A DNA stretch of 23,191 nucleotides, taken from positions 1 to 23,191 of the IMG/VR virus record IMGVR_UViG_3300045747_000019. One strand, written 5' to 3'. Position numbers and translations under genes: made by a program. Of this stretch, positions 5,109-14,141 are shown piece by piece (within the stretch, counting starts at the first letter, position 1; each line of letters opens with the position of its first letter). The notes under the pieces are model-generated. The model ran no database searches and was not told where the DNA came from. It was given only the letters and a program-made list of their open reading frames with translations. The DNA is from a virus.

Positions 5109-5826
5109 TAAAATGAAAGTCACCGCTTGGAGTTTTTCTAGATACTCCACATATAAGCAGTGTCCTGCGAAATTTAAATACTCGGCTCTTATGAAAATCC
5201 CCGAGCCCAAGAATGACGCCATGCAACGGGGTGCTGATATTCATACCATGGCAGAGCAATATCTCAAAGGGCTGGTAACAAAACTTCCGGCAGAATTGAA
5301 ACTCTTTGAACCTGAGTTCAAAAAACTTAAGGCGATCTACAAAAAGAAAACATCGGGTATGGTAGTTGAAGATGATTGGGCCTTTGATGTTAACTGGGAT
5401 CGTACCGAGTGGAACAACTGGATCAAGTGTTGGTGTCGCATTAAACTTGATGCTGCACACACTGAAGAAGATGGCGTGATGATTGTGTCCGATTGGAAAA
5501 CGGGCCGCTTTCGCGAAGAAATGCACGAGGAATACTTAGAGCAGCTTCAGCTTTATGCTCTTGCGGCTATGCTGCTACATCCACATATTAATGAGGTTCG
5601 CCCACGTCTTGTGTACTTAGACCAAGGCACTATCTACCCCGCCGAAAGTGACCCCATCATCTACGACCGGTCTGATATTCCTAAGCTGAAAAAGCTGTGG
5701 GAAAAGCGTGTCAAGCCAATGTTTGTTGACAAGACCTTTGCACCAAAAGCCAACTCTAAGTGCCATTGGTGCTTCTATGGCCAGTCTGGCAAAGCCAAAG
5801 GCGGGCCTGGGCTATGTCAGTTCTAG
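5098..5826 (+). CDS. PD-(D/E)XK nuclease, Cas4/RecB-like with Fe-S cysteines
   Basis: 242 residues from ATG at 5098. The fold markers appear in order: SRYSTYKQCPAKF at the N-terminus (C22), RGADIH (H49), a beta strand reaching D118, then VSDWKTG with D132 and K134, and the QLQLYALAA helix (Q149-A156). C222, C225 and C240 at the C-terminus, with C22, make the four-Cys iron-sulfur cluster site typical of Cas4 and AddB-like nucleases. It probably resects DNA ends in phage recombination or processes replication intermediates. No CRISPR genes or arrays are present, so it need not be linked to adaptation. The final Cys codon lies in the 13-base overlap with the next gene at 5814. Confidence 0.9.
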   Translation: MATNKMKVTAWSFSRYSTYKQCPAKFKYSALMKIPEPKNDAMQRGADIHTMAEQYLKGLVTKLPAELKLFEPEFKKLKAIYKKKTSGMVVEDDWAFDVNWDRTEWNNWIKCWCRIKLDAAHTEEDGVMIVSDWKTGRFREEMHEEYLEQLQLYALAAMLLHPHINEVRPRLVYLDQGTIYPAESDPIIYDRSDIPKLKKLWEKRVKPMFVDKTFAPKANSKCHWCFYGQSGKAKGGPGLCQF

Positions 5827-6356
5827 AGCACTGGAGGCCTATACCTGGGTATGAGGACTTTTACGAAGTCTCAGACTTGGGTAGGGTGAGATCCAAACCT
5901 AGAATCTTGCCACACAACTATGGCGGGCTGAGAACGACGCCTCAGAAGTACCTAGGCTGTCAAATGCCTAACGGGTATGTTAGATGTATTTTAACTGATG
6001 AGACTGGCCGCAGGAAGAACTTTGACATTCACCGCCTAGTACTTTTGGCGTTTGTAGGGAAGCCTCCAGAAGGTTGCTATACATTGCATGGACCTAGAGG
6101 GCAAACGGTACATGAGCTAAGCAATCTGTCTTACGGAACCCAAAAGCAGAACCTTGCCGACCAAGACAGAGACGGAGTTTTAGTGCACGGCGAAAGAAGC
6201 GGAATGCATAAACTAACTGCAGAGCAGGTCAAATACATCTTTCTTAGTAACGAAGTTGGGATGAGATTAGCGGAGCGATTTGGTGTTACGCCCACCCAAA
6301 TCAGTGCGATCAAACACCGCAAAACTTGGGCAAGGACAACAAAGGATTTAGTATGA
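5814..6356 (+). CDS. NUMOD4/HNH homing-type endonuclease with C-terminal helix-turn-helix
   Basis: 180 residues from ATG at 5814, overlapping the upstream stop by 13 bases; the longer in-frame start at 5760 lies inside the Fe-S nuclease gene. It starts with a NUMOD4-like segment (HWRPIPGYEDFYEVSDLGRV), followed by an HNH_3-like core (DIHRLVLLAF, then LHGPRG and ELSNLSYGTQKQN). The C-terminal part (KLTAEQVKYIFLS, AERFGVTPTQISAIKHRK) is a DNA-binding helix-turn-helix typical of this family. In place of the Asp-Asn pair normally seen after HGP-x-G are Val99-His100, so nuclease activity may be weakened. It ends with TGA overlapping the next ATG (ATGA). It is probably a selfish homing gene. Confidence 0.85.
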   Translation: MSVLEHWRPIPGYEDFYEVSDLGRVRSKPRILPHNYGGLRTTPQKYLGCQMPNGYVRCILTDETGRRKNFDIHRLVLLAFVGKPPEGCYTLHGPRGQTVHELSNLSYGTQKQNLADQDRDGVLVHGERSGMHKLTAEQVKYIFLSNEVGMRLAERFGVTPTQISAIKHRKTWARTTKDLV

Positions 6357-8620: not shown

Positions 8621-8662
8621 CTATGATACAATAATCATATCATCATGCTGAGGAACATTTAA
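8605..8662 (+). promoter_or_regulatory. possible promoter with inverted repeat and mini-ORF leader
   Basis: A weak -10 TACAAT (8627-8632) lies 16 bases after TCGCCA (8605-8610). TATGAT (8622-8627) and ATCATA (8634-8639) form an inverted repeat over it. ATAATCA followed by CATG resembles the promoters at 992 and 12194. ATG at 8645 opens a five-codon ORF (MLRNI) whose TAA overlaps the ATG of the next gene. Confidence 0.4.
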
Positions 8663-9261
8663 TGCCAATTCACTTCCCCGCCGTTTGTGCAGACCGGGAG
8701 CGCCGTACATGCTTAGCATTGGACGGATCAGGAAGCACGGTACAATTCATTCCCCTAAGCATTGAAAACGGTTTTCAAATCGAGTCAATGCCAAGGAAGA
8801 CATTCGACGAGGTGTACAAACACCTTGAAGATTACCCACCGGCTCGGTGTGCTACGCTCTACGCGCAGTATGCCATGTCAGTGGGTGCGACAGCGGAGGC
8901 CATGGAAGCTCTTGGCCGTATTACTAAACTCACACAAAAGGAAATTGAAATGGCTACTGCCAAGAAGGCGCCGACTGCCAAAGTCGAAAAGGTCACTGCT
9001 GAAAAGCCGGCAAAAGTTGCTAAGGTGGCCGCAGAAAAGGCTGAGAAGCCAGCAAAGAAAACCGGCGTCTCGGCCGCTCAGATGTTCCGTGACCTGATCA
9101 TGGCTGGAAATTTGTCTGACGCCAAGATCTTTGAAAAGGTCCAGGCAGCTCACGGTCTTTCCGACGACAAGGCCAGCTACGTTGCATGGTACCGCAAGGA
9201 CATGATTAAAAAGGGCGTCGAGGGCGTGCCAGAAGCTAAGCCTGTCAAAGCAGCCAAGTAA
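8662..9261 (+). CDS. Lys/Ala-rich linker protein with C-terminal small domain (199 aa)
   Basis: ATG at 8662 with GAGGA at 8650-8654. Residues 1-90 form a compact domain beginning MPIHFPAVCADRERR. Residues about 93-133 are a low-complexity Ala/Lys/Val/Pro segment (repeats of AEKPAK and VAKV) like histone-H1-type tails. Residues 134-190 form a helical domain (SAAQMFRDLIMAGNLSDAKI, then YVAWYRKDMIKKG) similar in style to small DNA-binding domains in phage proteins. A nucleic-acid-binding or nucleoid-like role is inferred from charge and layout. It stands at the start of the nucleotide-metabolism block. Confidence 0.65.
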   Translation: MPIHFPAVCADRERRTCLALDGSGSTVQFIPLSIENGFQIESMPRKTFDEVYKHLEDYPPARCATLYAQYAMSVGATAEAMEALGRITKLTQKEIEMATAKKAPTAKVEKVTAEKPAKVAKVAAEKAEKPAKKTGVSAAQMFRDLIMAGNLSDAKIFEKVQAAHGLSDDKASYVAWYRKDMIKKGVEGVPEAKPVKAAK

Positions 9262-9298
9262 CCTGTTACAACACAATTTGCTGAGGATCCAGAACACC

Positions 9299-10063
9299 AT
9301 GGCTACTGCACACCGTAAAGAAAAGAATCGCGATGACCGTGAGTACGACACCACCCAGCTCCATGCTAACGGGCACGGGAAAACGCTGGGCCGGGACTAC
9401 TCAGCCCACTTCTGGCGCTGGAGTTTTGCCCGCCGCTTCATTACGGTCAAAGACCGAGTCCTTGAGATTGGCTGCGGCGAAGACAAACCGCTGAGCAAGA
9501 TCTTGACTGGCGGCGCTGCTCCTCACGTGCTGCACTACACTGGCGTGGACTTGAACAAGCTCAAGCCATCTGCCGCAGGCCGCCTAAACTTCATTGGCGA
9601 GTTCAACTTCGTGGAACGTTACAAGGAGTTGCTCAAAGGCGAAAATGCCGGCGGCTTTGACGTCATTGTTCACTTTGAAGTCATTGAACACATGAAGGTC
9701 GAGCATGGCGCCAAAATGCTCAAAGCATGTTTCTCCGCCCTGAAGTCTGGTGGTATCATGCTCATGTCAACCCCTTGTTATGATGGAGTGCGCCATGCCG
9801 CCAACCACATCCACGAATATGAAGTCCCCGAACTTCAGAAAGCAACTGAAAAAGCTGGCTTCCGGGTTGAAACCCGCTACGGCACCTTCATGGACATCAA
9901 GCATATCGGGAAGGCGGAAACGGACAGAGCCGGGAAGTCTGCGATTGCTGAGGTCCGAAAAGCTCTCTCGGCGTACTATGACAATGATGCAATTAGTTGC
10001 CTCTTTGCTCCACTCTACCCCGACGATGCACGGAACAACCTGTGGGTCTGCATCAAGCCATGA
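9299..10063 (+). CDS. class I SAM-dependent methyltransferase
   Basis: About 254 residues from ATG at 9299; the in-frame TTG at 9278 lacks a better site, and GAGGA lies at 9283-9287. Motif I is VLEIGCGEDKPL, the acidic loop is YTGVDLN, and FDVIVHFEVIEHM and ALKSGGIMLMSTP match motifs IV-VI of UbiG/Methyltransf_11-type enzymes. There is no DPPY/NPPY or PCQ motif, so it is probably not a classical DNA adenine- or cytosine-C5 methyltransferase. Its substrate could be a small molecule or a modified nucleotide. It opens the cluster of MazG-like, Nmad1-like, hydroxymethylase-like and dCMP deaminase genes, with which it overlaps as ATGA at 10060. Confidence 0.85.
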   Translation: MATAHRKEKNRDDREYDTTQLHANGHGKTLGRDYSAHFWRWSFARRFITVKDRVLEIGCGEDKPLSKILTGGAAPHVLHYTGVDLNKLKPSAAGRLNFIGEFNFVERYKELLKGENAGGFDVIVHFEVIEHMKVEHGAKMLKACFSALKSGGIMLMSTPCYDGVRHAANHIHEYEVPELQKATEKAGFRVETRYGTFMDIKHIGKAETDRAGKSAIAEVRKALSAYYDNDAISCLFAPLYPDDARNNLWVCIKP

Positions 10064-10482
10064 GCCCCCTTACATTCATTAAGCGTAAGTTCTTCTATGA
10101 TGAGATGGAAGACGTCAAGGCGTTCTACGAAAAGTTTGAGCAGCCCATGTCTTCCATCCCGACTCAGGATTTGGTTACGCCTACCCGGCTTATTGAGCGC
10201 ATCAATTTCATGCAGGAAGAGCTTGATGAGTTCAAAGAAGGCGCAGCTACGCGCGACATGGCCCTCATGGCAGACTCTTTGATCGACCTGGTGTACGTCG
10301 TCAAAGGTACTGCCATCGAGATGGGCCTTCCATGGGAAGAACTCTGGATGGACGTGCAACGTGCAAATATGGCTAAGGTAATTGGCCAGACCAAGCGTGG
10401 CATCCAAATAGATGTGGCAAAACCTCCAGGATGGGTAGGTCCTAAGACCGAAGCCATTCTGTTTACGTACATGGGGAACTAA
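10060..10482 (+). CDS. MazG-like nucleoside triphosphate pyrophosphohydrolase
   Basis: 140 residues from ATG at 10060, overlapping the methyltransferase stop (ATGA). The core helix pair carries the MazG/PRA-PH metal site: MQEELDEFKEG (E53, E54, E57) followed by MADSLIDLVYVV (D72, D76). Phage members of this all-alpha family hydrolyse (d)NTPs to NMPs plus PPi, often to remove an unmodified nucleotide from the pool. The N-terminal 40 residues (DVKAFYEKFEQP) are also usual in phage forms. Placement next to a hydroxymethylase-like enzyme fits removal of a normal dNTP, but the specificity cannot be read from sequence. Confidence 0.82.
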   Translation: MSPLTFIKRKFFYDEMEDVKAFYEKFEQPMSSIPTQDLVTPTRLIERINFMQEELDEFKEGAATRDMALMADSLIDLVYVVKGTAIEMGLPWEELWMDVQRANMAKVIGQTKRGIQIDVAKPPGWVGPKTEAILFTYMGN

Positions 10483-10863
10483 ATGGCTCGGATAATCAAA
10501 CCTGAAAATGTGTCTCGTCAAGAACCGACCAGTGATGTTCCCACTGAGCTGCTTCTGAAGATCATTGAGAAGCGCGGTGGCCATCCCGGTGCCCTAGCTA
10601 CTGCTGCCCTGCTGTGCATCAAGAAAAGCCAGGATTACAACCATGGGCAATCTACGGATCCTCATACTGTTGACCGCACTGGGTACTTCCCCTTTGGGAC
10701 TACCAGCTATGCACAGATGCTTCATACGAAGACAGAGCGGTTCGTATCGCTTACACGCAAGGCGCAAGATGGCGGTACTTCCACGTTTGAAGGACTGCAC
10801 GATACAGCTTTGGACATCATCAACTACGCCGGCTTTTTCCTGGCAGATCCAAGGACCAAGTGA
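10483..10863 (+). CDS. Nucleotide modification-associated domain 1 (DUF1599) protein
   Basis: 126 residues; ATG at 10483 directly follows the previous TAA. Features match the DUF1599/Nmad1 family: KKSQDYNHG, a YFPFGTTSYAQMLHTKTERFV stretch split over two helices, and the terminal DTALDIINYAGFF. The family was named from its repeated occurrence in phage and bacterial operons for modified DNA bases; its exact reaction is not known to me. Position between MazG-like and hydroxymethylase-like genes agrees with that context. The TGA overlaps the next ATG at 10863. Confidence 0.75.
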   Translation: MARIIKPENVSRQEPTSDVPTELLLKIIEKRGGHPGALATAALLCIKKSQDYNHGQSTDPHTVDRTGYFPFGTTSYAQMLHTKTERFVSLTRKAQDGGTSTFEGLHDTALDIINYAGFFLADPRTK

Positions 10864-11648
10864 TGAACCATTCGTGGCTAACCACCGTTGGCACCATACT
10901 TACACAAGGCCTTAACGTAGAGCCCCGTGGTAAGCGCACTCTGGAAATACCGCAGCATACCGTGACAGTTCCTATGCGCTTGCCAGTCTTGACGGTCCCT
11001 GAGCGCAAGCTCAGTTACCAGTTCATGGCAGCCGAGGCCTACTGGATCCTGTCCGGTGACAACCGAGTTGACGGAATTTCACCGTGGAACAAGCGTATCG
11101 CCGACTTCAGCGACGATGGCAGCACCTTCTTCGGAGCCTACGGGCCGAAGATCTCTGACCAGTTGGACTATGTGATTCGCAAGTTGGCCGAAGACCCTGA
11201 TACTCGTCAAGCTGGTCTGATGATATGGCGAGAAAAACCTCCTCAGACGAAGGATGTTCCATGCACCATCGCCATCTTTGCGTCCATCAGGAATGATCGC
11301 CTCAACCTGTCTGTCTACATGCGGTCGTCTGACGTTTGGTTGGGACTTCCTTATGACGTCTTCAACTTCAGCATGTTGGCCCACTTGATCTGCTGCCGTC
11401 TGAGTTCTCAGAAGAATATTCATGTTTCACCTGGCACTCTTTATTTGACTGCCGCATCGAGTCACTTATATGAGGATCAATGGGCTCAGGCCGAGGCACT
11501 GGTTCAGATGCCAAACGTTGATCGTCAGAATCCAACTCCTGAAATTCTTTTCAAAGAAGAAGAGGCGTTGATGCGAGCCCTCGAGGTTCTTCGTGAAACA
11601 AAGGCGGGTGACGCGTGCCGTTGGTGGGAGCATAAGAATGCGGCCTGA
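10863..11648 (+). CDS. thymidylate-synthase-fold enzyme, probable dCMP (hydroxy)methyltransferase
   Basis: 261 residues from ATG at 10863 (the in-frame GTG at 10860 is less likely). TS-fold features: E58 in AAEAYWILSG, GAYGP (91-95), DTRQAG with R115, catalytic C134 in DVPCTI, MRSSDVWLGLPYD (153-165) and HLY (201-203). In thymidylate synthase the last position of LGLPFN is Asn (E. coli N177), which selects dUMP; here it is D165, as in T4 dCMP hydroxymethylase (Asp179). The MRS-x-D spelling also matches the T4 enzyme rather than QRS-x-D. It probably makes 5-hydroxymethyl- (or methyl-) dCMP using methylene-tetrahydrofolate. Product identity is inferred. Confidence 0.82.
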   Translation: MNHSWLTTVGTILTQGLNVEPRGKRTLEIPQHTVTVPMRLPVLTVPERKLSYQFMAAEAYWILSGDNRVDGISPWNKRIADFSDDGSTFFGAYGPKISDQLDYVIRKLAEDPDTRQAGLMIWREKPPQTKDVPCTIAIFASIRNDRLNLSVYMRSSDVWLGLPYDVFNFSMLAHLICCRLSSQKNIHVSPGTLYLTAASSHLYEDQWAQAEALVQMPNVDRQNPTPEILFKEEEALMRALEVLRETKAGDACRWWEHKNAA

Positions 11649-12198
11649 TCGCGATTCTTGGGCCATGGCCATGGCCGTCCTTACGGCAGAAAGGGCCACG
11701 TGTCTCCGGCGTAAAGTCGGAGCCGTGTTCCTCAATGAGCGCGGTCATGTGCTAGCCACTGGGTACAACGGGGTTGCTTCTGGTCAGAAGCACTGCAATG
11801 AACTGACAGGAGAAGTTCCTAACCCAAGTCTTGAGATGGCTGATGGAAGTTTCAGGCGTGCTGAGCACTGGGAACTCGCTACTGTCAAGGTTCACACCCA
11901 CGCTTGTTCTGGAGCCAAAGCGGCCAGCGGTACCAACCTTGATGGGTGCCAAGCCATACACGCTGAGCAAAATGCCCTTTTACAAACGCGAGACGTCTAC
12001 TCTATCCACACAGCCTACGTGACTGCCAGTCCGTGCATGACATGCACAAAATTGCTCCTGAATACTTCATGCCAGAGAATAGTCTTCCTAGAGGACTACC
12101 CACACTCAGCATCGAAGGAACTCTGGGAGTCATCTGATCGTGAGTGGACTAAGTTAAACTTTAAATACACGGTTACAAATGCAGGGATTAGGTTATAA
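11638..12198 (+). CDS. dCMP deaminase
   Basis: 186 residues from ATG at 11638, overlapping the previous stop by 11 bases. It has the cytidine-deaminase zinc site HAE (H108-E110) and SPCMTC (C133, C136) and the usual start (DSWAMAMAVL, CLRRKVGAVF, GYNGVASG). Between GYNG and HAE there is an extended segment (about 54-105) with C53, H86, H88, C90 and C104 that could bind a second metal, as in T4-type enzymes. It converts dCMP to dUMP, feeding thymidylate synthesis and draining dCMP beside a probable hydroxymethylase. The stop TAA lies within the -10 box of the next gene's promoter. Confidence 0.92.
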   Translation: MRPDRDSWAMAMAVLTAERATCLRRKVGAVFLNERGHVLATGYNGVASGQKHCNELTGEVPNPSLEMADGSFRRAEHWELATVKVHTHACSGAKAASGTNLDGCQAIHAEQNALLQTRDVYSIHTAYVTASPCMTCTKLLLNTSCQRIVFLEDYPHSASKELWESSDREWTKLNFKYTVTNAGIRL

Positions 12199-12206
12199 TC
12201 AATGCA
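12172..12206 (+). promoter_or_regulatory. sigma70-type promoter, predicted leaderless start
   Basis: GTTACA (12172-12177), a 16-base spacer and perfect TATAAT (12194-12199). The predicted start, seven bases on, is 12206, the A of the ATG of the deacetylase gene, so the mRNA may be leaderless. The -10 and following bases are nearly identical to those at 992-1009. It lies within the end of the dCMP deaminase gene. Confidence 0.65.
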
Positions 12207-13081
12207 TGATCATATTTAAGCCGCCGCACCGCGTTGAAGGTGCTCCTAACTTGTCCAAGGGTATGGACGTGTTTTCCACAGCTGCCAACATGGCTACAGA
12301 CACGATCATCACCTTGGACCCTTCTTCTGAGCCAATCTATGAAGAGACTGAGCTTCAGCTAGAGGCCATCCACGACAAGTCTTACGTCAAAAACGTCCTG
12401 AGTGGCGATGATGTCAACGGCTACGGATCTTCTGGCCTGTCTGCTCATACTGAGAACATGCACTCGGTGCTTTCATGCGCTATCATGCACGAAGCTGCTT
12501 TGATGGCCCTCAAAAACCCAGCAACCACGGTCTTTGCACCAGTCTCAGGATTTCACCATGCTGGATACGATTATGGCGGTGGCTACTGTACGTTCAACGG
12601 GCTCGTTTTGGCAGCAAAAGCTGTGCGTGGTCTTCGACCAAATGCAAAGGTGCTCATCATTGACGGTGACGGACATTGGGGTGATGGCACTGATAATCTT
12701 ATTGACACTCTCCGATTAGATTGGTTAGAGAATTGCGCTCTGGACAAAGCATCGGTTGCCGGAAGTTATGTCGCTTGCATTCTTAACATTACCACAGCCT
12801 TTGGGCATGACGAGTGGGATCTTGTCATCTACCAGGCAGGGGCCGACTCCCATATTGACGACCCATACTACTCTGGGTATTTGACTGATGACCAATGGGA
12901 TCGCCGAGATGCCATGGTTTTCAAACTATGTAGGGAAAAGAACATCCCAATCGTGTTCAACCTAGCTGGTGGCTACAACGGACTCAAGACTATCTCTTTG
13001 CACAACCGCACTGTGTCAATGGCCCGAAGGGTTTACGGGGAGCCTCCACGCGCCCACCTTTCGCCTTTGCCAAGCCCTTGA
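12206..13081 (+). CDS. histone deacetylase/acetylpolyamine amidohydrolase superfamily enzyme
   Basis: 291 residues from ATG at 12206 (an upstream in-frame ATG at 12179 precedes the -10 box and has no ribosome site). The zinc-deacetylase active site is complete: GFHH (H117, H118), GGYCTFN, zinc ligands D155 and H157 in IDGDGHWGDGT, D214 in QAGADSH, and the transition-state Tyr257 in AGGYN. The second His of the usual D-x-HHG is Trp158. The YGGGYC stretch resembles acetylpolyamine amidohydrolases more than eukaryotic HDACs, and the metal-motif spacing (155 to 214) is short. The family removes acetyl/acyl groups from amines. Its own promoter and place after the nucleotide-modification block suggest a special role. 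Its last 92 bases overlap the opposing virion gene. Confidence 0.88.
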   Translation: MIIFKPPHRVEGAPNLSKGMDVFSTAANMATDTIITLDPSSEPIYEETELQLEAIHDKSYVKNVLSGDDVNGYGSSGLSAHTENMHSVLSCAIMHEAALMALKNPATTVFAPVSGFHHAGYDYGGGYCTFNGLVLAAKAVRGLRPNAKVLIIDGDGHWGDGTDNLIDTLRLDWLENCALDKASVAGSYVACILNITTAFGHDEWDLVIYQAGADSHIDDPYYSGYLTDDQWDRRDAMVFKLCREKNIPIVFNLAGGYNGLKTISLHNRTVSMARRVYGEPPRAHLSPLPSP

Positions 13082-14141
13082 TCAACTCAGATCCTTGAAA
13101 GTCTCTGGGGTCTATGTCTGGGTTTTGAAGGATGTCATTGGTAATGCCGGACCTCCGTAGCGTGTCATAACCTACTGGTCTGGCAACCCCAAGCTGTTGG
13201 GACAAATCACCGATGGCGTCTCCTACCCGGGCAAAGTCTGTATTGGATGATGGGACAAACTGCTTGCCAAGACCTAAGCGCTTGGCGGCCTCGTAAGATT
13301 GGTCAAAGCGGTTGAACTTGTCGTCGCCAGTAAGAATGTCAGAGTTTCCCATCTCAGCAGACCGGAGCTCCTCATCAGACAGGCGCATGAGTTCATGGAT
13401 CTTAGCAGTCGTGTTATTCCCAATGGCCATGTTCAATGCGCCGATTTGGGTCGGCGTATCAGACTTCTGGAATGGGCGCTCATTGTGGAATTTACCCCAC
13501 GCGGCATCCAATTGTTCTGGTGCCATTTGCATGAGGTTTCTACCGCGGTCTCCATACTTCTCAGCAGCCATGGCTTGGTATAGAGCCTTTTTCTGGACAT
13601 TACTGTTAGACAGACCAAGGTTCAGGGCGGCAGATCCAGGATGGGCCAGAAGCCAGTCAGTGAACAAAGGATACAAGGTCTTGGCCATACCAGAACCTTC
13701 CTTGGCTCCCATCATGTCTATAGCATTGAAGTCGCCAGATGGGCTCATCCCAGCATCCTTAGCAAACTTGATCCTATCCATCAAGGTGGCTTGCCTAAAC
13801 TCTGGTGCGTTCCTGAGAGCTGCTGCCAGTGTCAGTGGAGTGTCACCAATGGGGCTGATACTGGCACCTGACGGCCTGTGGGTCAGCATGCCGTCCTCTG
13901 TGTGAAGGTGGTCTGGATCTATGCCGTATTTCCTGGCCAAGACTCGAGCCATGCCTCTGTCGTCTCCTTTAGGTATATCTCGGCTGGTTGCTGCATAGGC
14001 AGGATCCTCAGCAAGACCCTGGAAGAACTTCCCTACCTTCGACTGAACCGCTTGCATCTCAGGTGTCCAGGCCTTGCCCAGACGAGCGTACATCTCAGAC
14101 AGAGGACCTACAAGATGCTCTAAAGCTGCAATGCCACTCAT
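12990..14141 (-). CDS. putative internal virion protein (383 aa)
   Basis: Last gene of the leftward operon, starting by ATGA overlap with the transglycosylase gene stop at 14138-14141, with AGGTGG upstream. The product begins MSGIAALEHLVGPLSEMYAR; it is mostly helical with Asn/Gln/Met-rich stretches (LNLGLSNSNVQKKALYQAM, AWGKFHNERPF) and ends in a basic tail with GGRVEAPRKPFGP and two Cys. I recognise no domain. Its place after a transglycosylase-bearing virion protein suggests an ejected or internal head protein of a short-tailed phage. Its 3' end overlaps the opposing deacetylase gene by 92 bases, and I see no terminator hairpin there. Confidence 0.65.
   Translation of the reverse strand: MSGIAALEHLVGPLSEMYARLGKAWTPEMQAVQSKVGKFFQGLAEDPAYAATSRDIPKGDDRGMARVLARKYGIDPDHLHTEDGMLTHRPSGASISPIGDTPLTLAAALRNAPEFRQATLMDRIKFAKDAGMSPSGDFNAIDMMGAKEGSGMAKTLYPLFTDWLLAHPGSAALNLGLSNSNVQKKALYQAMAAEKYGDRGRNLMQMAPEQLDAAWGKFHNERPFQKSDTPTQIGALNMAIGNNTTAKIHELMRLSDEELRSAEMGNSDILTGDDKFNRFDQSYEAAKRLGLGKQFVPSSNTDFARVGDAIGDLSQQLGVARPVGYDTLRRSGITNDILQNPDIDPRDFQGSELIKGLAKAKGGRVEAPRKPFGPLTQCGCAKR

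Follow-up and report, generated by a model that had tools for sequence, protein, structure and literature searches.

The window analysed here is the whole of an IMG/VR virus record (23,191 bases, classed as linear). Its early operon is closed by a gene for a protein of the histone deacetylase (HDAC) superfamily, which lies on the same strand as the upstream genes from the methyltransferase to the dCMP deaminase. The features of this region are as follows:

8662..9261, + strand: conserved protein (phrog_34102), left edge of the exchanged modification module
9278..10063, + strand: SAM-dependent methyltransferase (PF13489), 88-92% identical in two relatives (L003, L013)
9997..10482, + strand: PRA-PH/MazG-like nucleotide pyrophosphohydrolase (PF01503, E=1.6e-12; phrog_671)
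10483..10863, + strand: 126-aa module protein (phrog_18404, 'hydrolase'), also in relatives L003, L012 and L013
10860..11648, + strand: thymidylate synthase (TS) homologue, predicted dCMP hydroxymethylase or methylase, with Asp at the Asn177-equivalent position (LPYDVFNF)
11638..12198, + strand: dCMP deaminase (PF00383, E=3e-19; phrog_174), ending 7 bases before the deacylase start
12179..12205, + strand: 9 extra residues from a possible alternative in-frame ATG, overlapping the dCMP deaminase stop
12206..13081, + strand: HDAC-superfamily deacylase gene (PF00850, E=1.1e-25; AlphaFold2; Foldseek)
12551..12559, + strand: foot-pocket gatekeeper position F116 and catalytic dyad H117-H118 (SGFHH), from conservation and the HDAC11 literature
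12662..12685, + strand: D153-G-D155-G-H157-W158-G-D160, with zinc ligands D155 and H157 and charge-relay residues D153 and D160, from conservation
12845..12847, + strand: D214, third zinc ligand (GAD), invariant
12968..12976, + strand: G255-G256-Y257 with the catalytic Tyr, invariant

The deacylase frame begins with ATG and is open to the stop ending at 13081 (291 aa). The upstream start at 12179 is less likely, because it overlaps the dCMP deaminase gene and because the ATG at 12206 agrees with the relatives. At its 3' end the gene overlaps a convergent structural ORF (12990-14141) by 92 bases (window 12990-13081), a stretch that covers the disordered C-terminal tail of the deacylase; an overlap of ~70-110 bases recurs in L003, L004, L012 and L013. 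Further upstream, a gene of the NUMOD4/HNH homing endonuclease type (5760-6356), without a match in L003 or L013, is located between a PD-(D/E)XK nuclease gene and an exonuclease gene.

The initial annotation had placed the enzyme among phage nucleotide genes, and the early operon with its TS homologue, dCMP deaminase and pyrophosphohydrolase agrees with this. The best PDB match of the TS homologue was CMP 5-hydroxymethylase 5b6d (E=2e-18). Asp177 is known to mark enzymes directed at dCMP, as well as contigs with modified cytosine, and in the latter PRA-PH domains are found together with dCMP deaminase domains (PMC8670742). Since all three are present in the window, its phage is predicted from gene content to carry modified cytosine. 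The methyltransferase is a candidate enzyme for one of the steps by which the modified base is made; it is 70-77% identical in Stenotrophomonas phage AXL3 and Caudoviricetes MW202621, higher than most of its neighbours. The layout of the module is common to three relatives (L003, L012 and L013). A carbamoyltransferase beside the cytosine module, as described in PMC8670742, was found in none of 15 records.

Active site and structural class of the deacylase

In a survey of homologues, 217 viral-contig stretches matched the family patterns, at least 188 of them encoding a relative, and the same search matched 326 stretches in bacterial and archaeal genomes. The gene had been called unusual among phage nucleotide genes; the setting is real, but the gene is thus no lone oddity. 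Bacterial copies (L100, L112, L113, L156; L094, L128, L155) are flanked by hemW-like and rdgB-like genes in Lysobacterales or, elsewhere, are located near WYL-type regulators, as judged by eye. Weak deacetylase-like matches in the records of Staphylococcus phage UPMK_1 and Pseudomonas phage Y10 (MG543995.1, OQ572411.1) may be host DNA in the assemblies.

The catalytic residues originally proposed (H117/H118, D155, H157, D214 and Y257) were each found at the position given. Together with D153, G255 and G256 they do not vary among the homologues compared, 85 viral and 76 bacterial (161 in all), so that the tandem His dyad, the D-x-H and Asp ligands, the charge-relay acid and the GGY tyrosine of the HDAC/arginase-deacetylase superfamily are all in place. 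F116 is present in 157 of the 161 proteins (82/85 viral, 75/76 bacterial). Position 160 is D or N among the homologues, and both charge-relay acids, D153 and D160, are present in the window protein. Trp158 does follow H157 directly, replacing the second His of the HHG motif, but it was rejected as a sign of a special branch, because Tyr, Phe or Trp is usual at this position (Tyr in 57/85 viral and 58/76 bacterial members, with Trp or Phe next and other residues in the remainder). Zinc is not bound by the second His of HHG.

The 291-aa protein matched Pfam Hist_deacetyl, with no match to any PHROG or NCBIfam model. Its AlphaFold2 model, built from a 104-row alignment (two rows from another collection left out), covers the full length with a mean pLDDT of 94.2 and a pTM of 0.92, only the last residues being disordered, and both the model and the Foldseek results correspond to the alpha/beta deacetylase fold. 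In gene pairs with measurable dS, dN/dS was 0.065-0.21, indicating purifying selection; distant pairs, including the window versus L003 and versus L013, were saturated. The Pfam match, the model confidence and the dN/dS values uphold the original reading of a complete zinc deacetylase-superfamily gene: the frame is a genuine member, far beyond chance. That it might instead be a non-enzymatic relic or a chance ORF has a negligible probability, being refuted by conservation (an invariant active site, dN/dS well below 1), and no evidence in favour of it was found.

The closest PDB structure in the Foldseek search was Vibrio cholerae HdaH (VcHdaH) with decanoic acid (9gky, E=2.7e-14, TM 0.77), followed by Leptospira HDAC11 with cis-5-dodecenoic acid, then by a Burkholderia HDAC protein and by a lysine deacylase. 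A PDB profile search (106-row profile) likewise gave VcHdaH as the best match (9gkv, E=5e-42), followed by HDAC6 entries with two domains and by 9rje and 9gz5 of class IV. The nearest proteins by both sequence and structure therefore belong to cluster 5/class IV, and the two closest solved ones, VcHdaH and Leptospira HDAC11, both bind long chains. The foot pocket of the window protein is of the clade B kind, with no RPP and a bulky Phe/Tyr gatekeeper (F116). Published mutants show that the Phe gatekeeper before HH is needed for HDAC11 deacylase activity (PMC13325672). At the class IV loop L1, neither the HPFD motif (clade B) nor the Arg variant (clade A) is present, the family consensus there being SPSAxKP. 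The window protein is hence best described, on sequence and model, as class-IV-like (HDAC11-like, cluster 5), in a phage and proteobacterial branch of its own, rather than filed as class IV, because the HPFD motif is absent. A long-chain preference is possible, as an extrapolation from the foot pocket alone given the missing HPFD.

A resemblance to acetylpolyamine amidohydrolases (APAHs) had also been proposed, with reference to a YGGGYC stretch (residues 123-128). Graf et al. tied an RPP motif before HH, and PIS/PEG near the third zinc ligand, to polyamine and robust acetyl activity (PMC11532494). Further traits of APAHs are an extended L2 loop for polyamine specificity and a head-to-head dimer. 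The window protein, which is short (291 aa), reads PVSGFHH at the first site and P220-Y221-Y222 (PYY) at the second, where most of the family has P-Y/L-G. The first APAH in the PDB profile search was 6phr, at E=7e-18 versus 5e-42 for VcHdaH, and in the Foldseek search APAH 3men ranked 15. The APAH assignment was rejected on motifs and similarity, and the proposed resemblance is unsupported. As a functional alternative, an APAH could liberate spermidine or putrescine, to be used in replication, packaging or base modification; the superfamily is common to both, giant-virus APAHs release polyamines (PMC9992855) and polyamines are important for phages. Given the missing RPP and PIS/PEG motifs and the remoteness of APAHs by sequence and fold, this role is improbable. 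AdoMet decarboxylase, a polyamine-pathway partner, was likewise found in 0 of 38 records, nearly all of which carry the deacylase gene.

Modification modules in phages carrying the gene

In the window and in L003, L012, L013, L004, L014 and L016, the deacylase gene keeps its place as the last of the early operon, followed by the convergent structural genes, while the modification module that precedes it is swapped. L004, L014 and L016 have the same backbone (SNF2 helicase, deacylase, convergent structural genes) with another module, comprising 5-hmdU kinase parts, an Asn-type TS and a DatZ-like dATPase. L004 additionally encodes an amino acid:DNA transferase (glycinyltransferase 8z2m, E=2e-52), a flavin-dependent lyase (8z2o, E=9e-43) and a GNAT acetyltransferase, and the homologue of the window protein at 8662..9261 is located upstream of its transferase gene. 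One gene run of L004 (L185:4146-12437) thus unites thymidine hypermodification of the Na-GlyT/5-NmdU type with a DatZ-like dATPase without PurZ, an unexpected pairing.

A third setting was found in a set of Z phages, in which the genes upstream of the deacylase form the 2-aminoadenine pathway: polymerase, PurZ (phiVC8 6fm1, E=2e-84), dATP/dGTP pyrophosphohydrolase and DatZ (6zpa, E=3e-15), then the deacylase. PurZ-family matches were obtained in 12/12 tested records of this set. Among isolate phages, 192 of 50,697 records have PurZ/PurA-like genes, and none of the PurZ-bearing isolates listed was among the isolate-phage deacylase matches. In the Z-genome phages (L026, 10707-13355, and its kin) the gene next after the deacylase encodes a conserved protein, usually of ~380-450 aa and in a few cases longer, with no Pfam or PHROG match. 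The 398-aa gene at this place was considered as a functional partner and set aside; by eye, it looks like a virion protein.

In an IQ-TREE analysis of 70 rows of viral and bacterial homologues, the group of the window and L004 together with the Z-phage group was split from the other homologues at 100/98 (bootstrap/SH-aLRT), each group being supported at 100/98 or better. The distinct branch suggested by the initial annotation is thus borne out as a phage-only clade. One of three modules (cytosine, 5-hmdU hypermodification, PurZ/DatZ) was present in 19/19 tested records of the supported clade; L006, a 33-kb fragment placed in the clade by a quick tree, has none of them. The 5-hmdU kinase helical domain occurs in no record outside the clade; there, five records have a TS matching the ordinary family much more strongly, and L057, L060 and L070 have a strong PurA-family match (PurA or PurZ0). 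The last three represent another phage group, in which the deacylase gene lies beside tail-tube genes and the adenylosuccinate synthetase match is strong. The co-occurrence of clade and modules is to be taken as an association; the tested records are related to one another and so do not count as independent events.

This 19/19 co-occurrence makes a role closer to DNA modification possible. The clade might, though this is rather unlikely, be a dedicated partner of genome-wide base modification, deacylating the modified nucleotide, the modified DNA or their handling enzyme whatever the base (C, T or A). It is also unlikely, if conceivable, that the enzyme acts on N-acylated modified bases or nucleotides as an eraser, proof-reader or editing enzyme; such a nucleic-acid role is suggested by the supported clade (100/98) with its modules, and by the L004 run with transferase, flavin-dependent lyase and GNAT genes that ends in the deacylase gene. 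Acetyltransferases are reportedly able (in work of 2022 by Lee et al.) to act on aminated thymidines in phage DNA. Yet the deacylase is common to three unrelated chemistries, neither Z nor hmC synthesis is known to include an acyl step, and among the tested phages whose enzyme belongs to another branch the majority have no match to any of the three modules. In L016, moreover, the 5-hmdU kinase occurs with no match to GNAT (PF00583) or the transferase. A general pairing of a GNAT writer with the deacylase as eraser was rejected because PF00583 is missing from most tested phages: it was detected in L004 and L014 only, and not in the window, L003, L012, L013, L016 or the tested Z phages.

Phages that manage without the deacylase also argue against a role on nucleic acid. 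AXL3 and MW202621 have the same gene order and the same Asp-type TS as the window, and Pseudoxanthomonas phage PW916 has the polymerase, TS and dCMP deaminase in common with it. The early operon of AXL3 contains, in the same order as the window, polymerase, helicase, methyltransferase (70% identity), pyrophosphohydrolase, Asp177-type TS (56%) and dCMP deaminase (57%), but no deacylase gene. All three phages are absent from the phage records matching the deacylase, and the AXL3 and MW202621 stretches gave no convincing match to its family. Of 37 restriction enzymes, 35 failed to cut the DNA of AXL3, and cleavage was confined to A/T-only sites (PMC7504290). Since AXL3 combines the module and restriction-resistant DNA with the lack of a deacylase, the cytosine module appears to work without it. 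The gene is therefore an accessory of modified-DNA phages, one that synthesis of the modified base does not require, being absent from AXL3, PW916 and MW202621, which carry the module or its core genes. Of the earlier proposal that the enzyme releases an amine for DNA hypermodification, the gene context stands, while a role as amine supplier is unlikely, as AXL3 and the two other relatives do without it.

Proposed function and comparison with known systems

The best explanation, to which we assign a probability of about 60%, is an early-expressed zinc deacylase that acts on acyl-lysine of a host or phage protein and is accessory to modified-DNA phages. We infer that the window protein is catalytic; the most likely substrate would be acyl-lysine, possibly with a medium or long chain, on a host or phage protein. 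The enzyme would be a Zn2+-dependent amide hydrolase (HDAC, arginase/deacetylase fold), presumably made with the early nucleotide genes because of its gene position. D155, H157 and D214 would hold the zinc, His118, itself polarised by D160, would activate the water, and Tyr257 would stabilise the tetrahedral intermediate. The N-acyl-amine would thereby be cut to amine and carboxylate, the acyl product exiting via the foot pocket gated by Phe116. The nearest solved homologue, VcHdaH, has only weak activity, on decanoyl-lysine (PMC11532494), so that the true substrate in this part of the family may be a small molecule.

A deacylase of this kind could also serve counter-defence, either reversing the acylation of a phage or host protein by a host defence system or destroying an acylated signal that such a system produces. 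The patchy spread over many phage lineages and bacteria is consistent with this, as are the deacylase identity of 50-64%, below that of most operon neighbours, and the WYL-type regulators that adjoin some bacterial copies (by eye only). We nevertheless consider such a role quite improbable, in view of the strong purifying selection; no defence system with such a target was identified (PADLOC library left out).

Lysine deacylases of bacterial viruses are nearly unstudied, and a phage-only clade that tracks three base-modification chemistries connects acyl removal with modified-genome phages in a way that is open to testing. A ready chemical probe is available in HDAC inhibitors, for instance SAHA, which inhibits bacterial HDAC members (PMC11532494).

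Among the solved systems, VcHdaH (cluster 5b; class IV clade A; 9gkv/9gky) is the best match of the window protein by sequence profile and fold, with the same catalytic set and an SGG/SGF-type foot-pocket motif without RPP. It differs in having only ~20% identity in the fold alignment, a Tyr gatekeeper (SGGYHH) where the window protein has Phe, and the second His of HHG, and it is a weak de-decanoylase only. Leptospira HDAC11 (9gz5; class IV clade B; TM 0.77) shares the Phe gatekeeper before HH, but is a cellular protein of 18% identity, and its HPFD loop motif is not found in the window protein. The cluster 4 APAHs (Mycoplana ramosa, giant viruses) have the superfamily and the catalytic residues in common with it, but carry both RPP and PIS/PEG, and the similarity is much lower.

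A survey of polyamine metabolism in the virosphere placed APAHs in giant viruses only (PMC9992855), a BFVD search returned no phage protein with a deacetylase fold, and a literature search found no mention of an HDAC for phages that are hypermodified or have Z genomes. An annotation as 'putative histone deacetylase protein' already exists for Rhodococcus phage E3 gp202, which is, like the window protein, an HDAC homologue carried by a phage (34% identity, covering 76% of the query). In contrast to the window gene, it forms a long branch and adjoins a tail-fibre gene in a 142-kb phage with none of the three tested base-modification families. Phage HDACs were thus previously known from E3, whereas the branch of the window protein and its association with base modification appear to be new.
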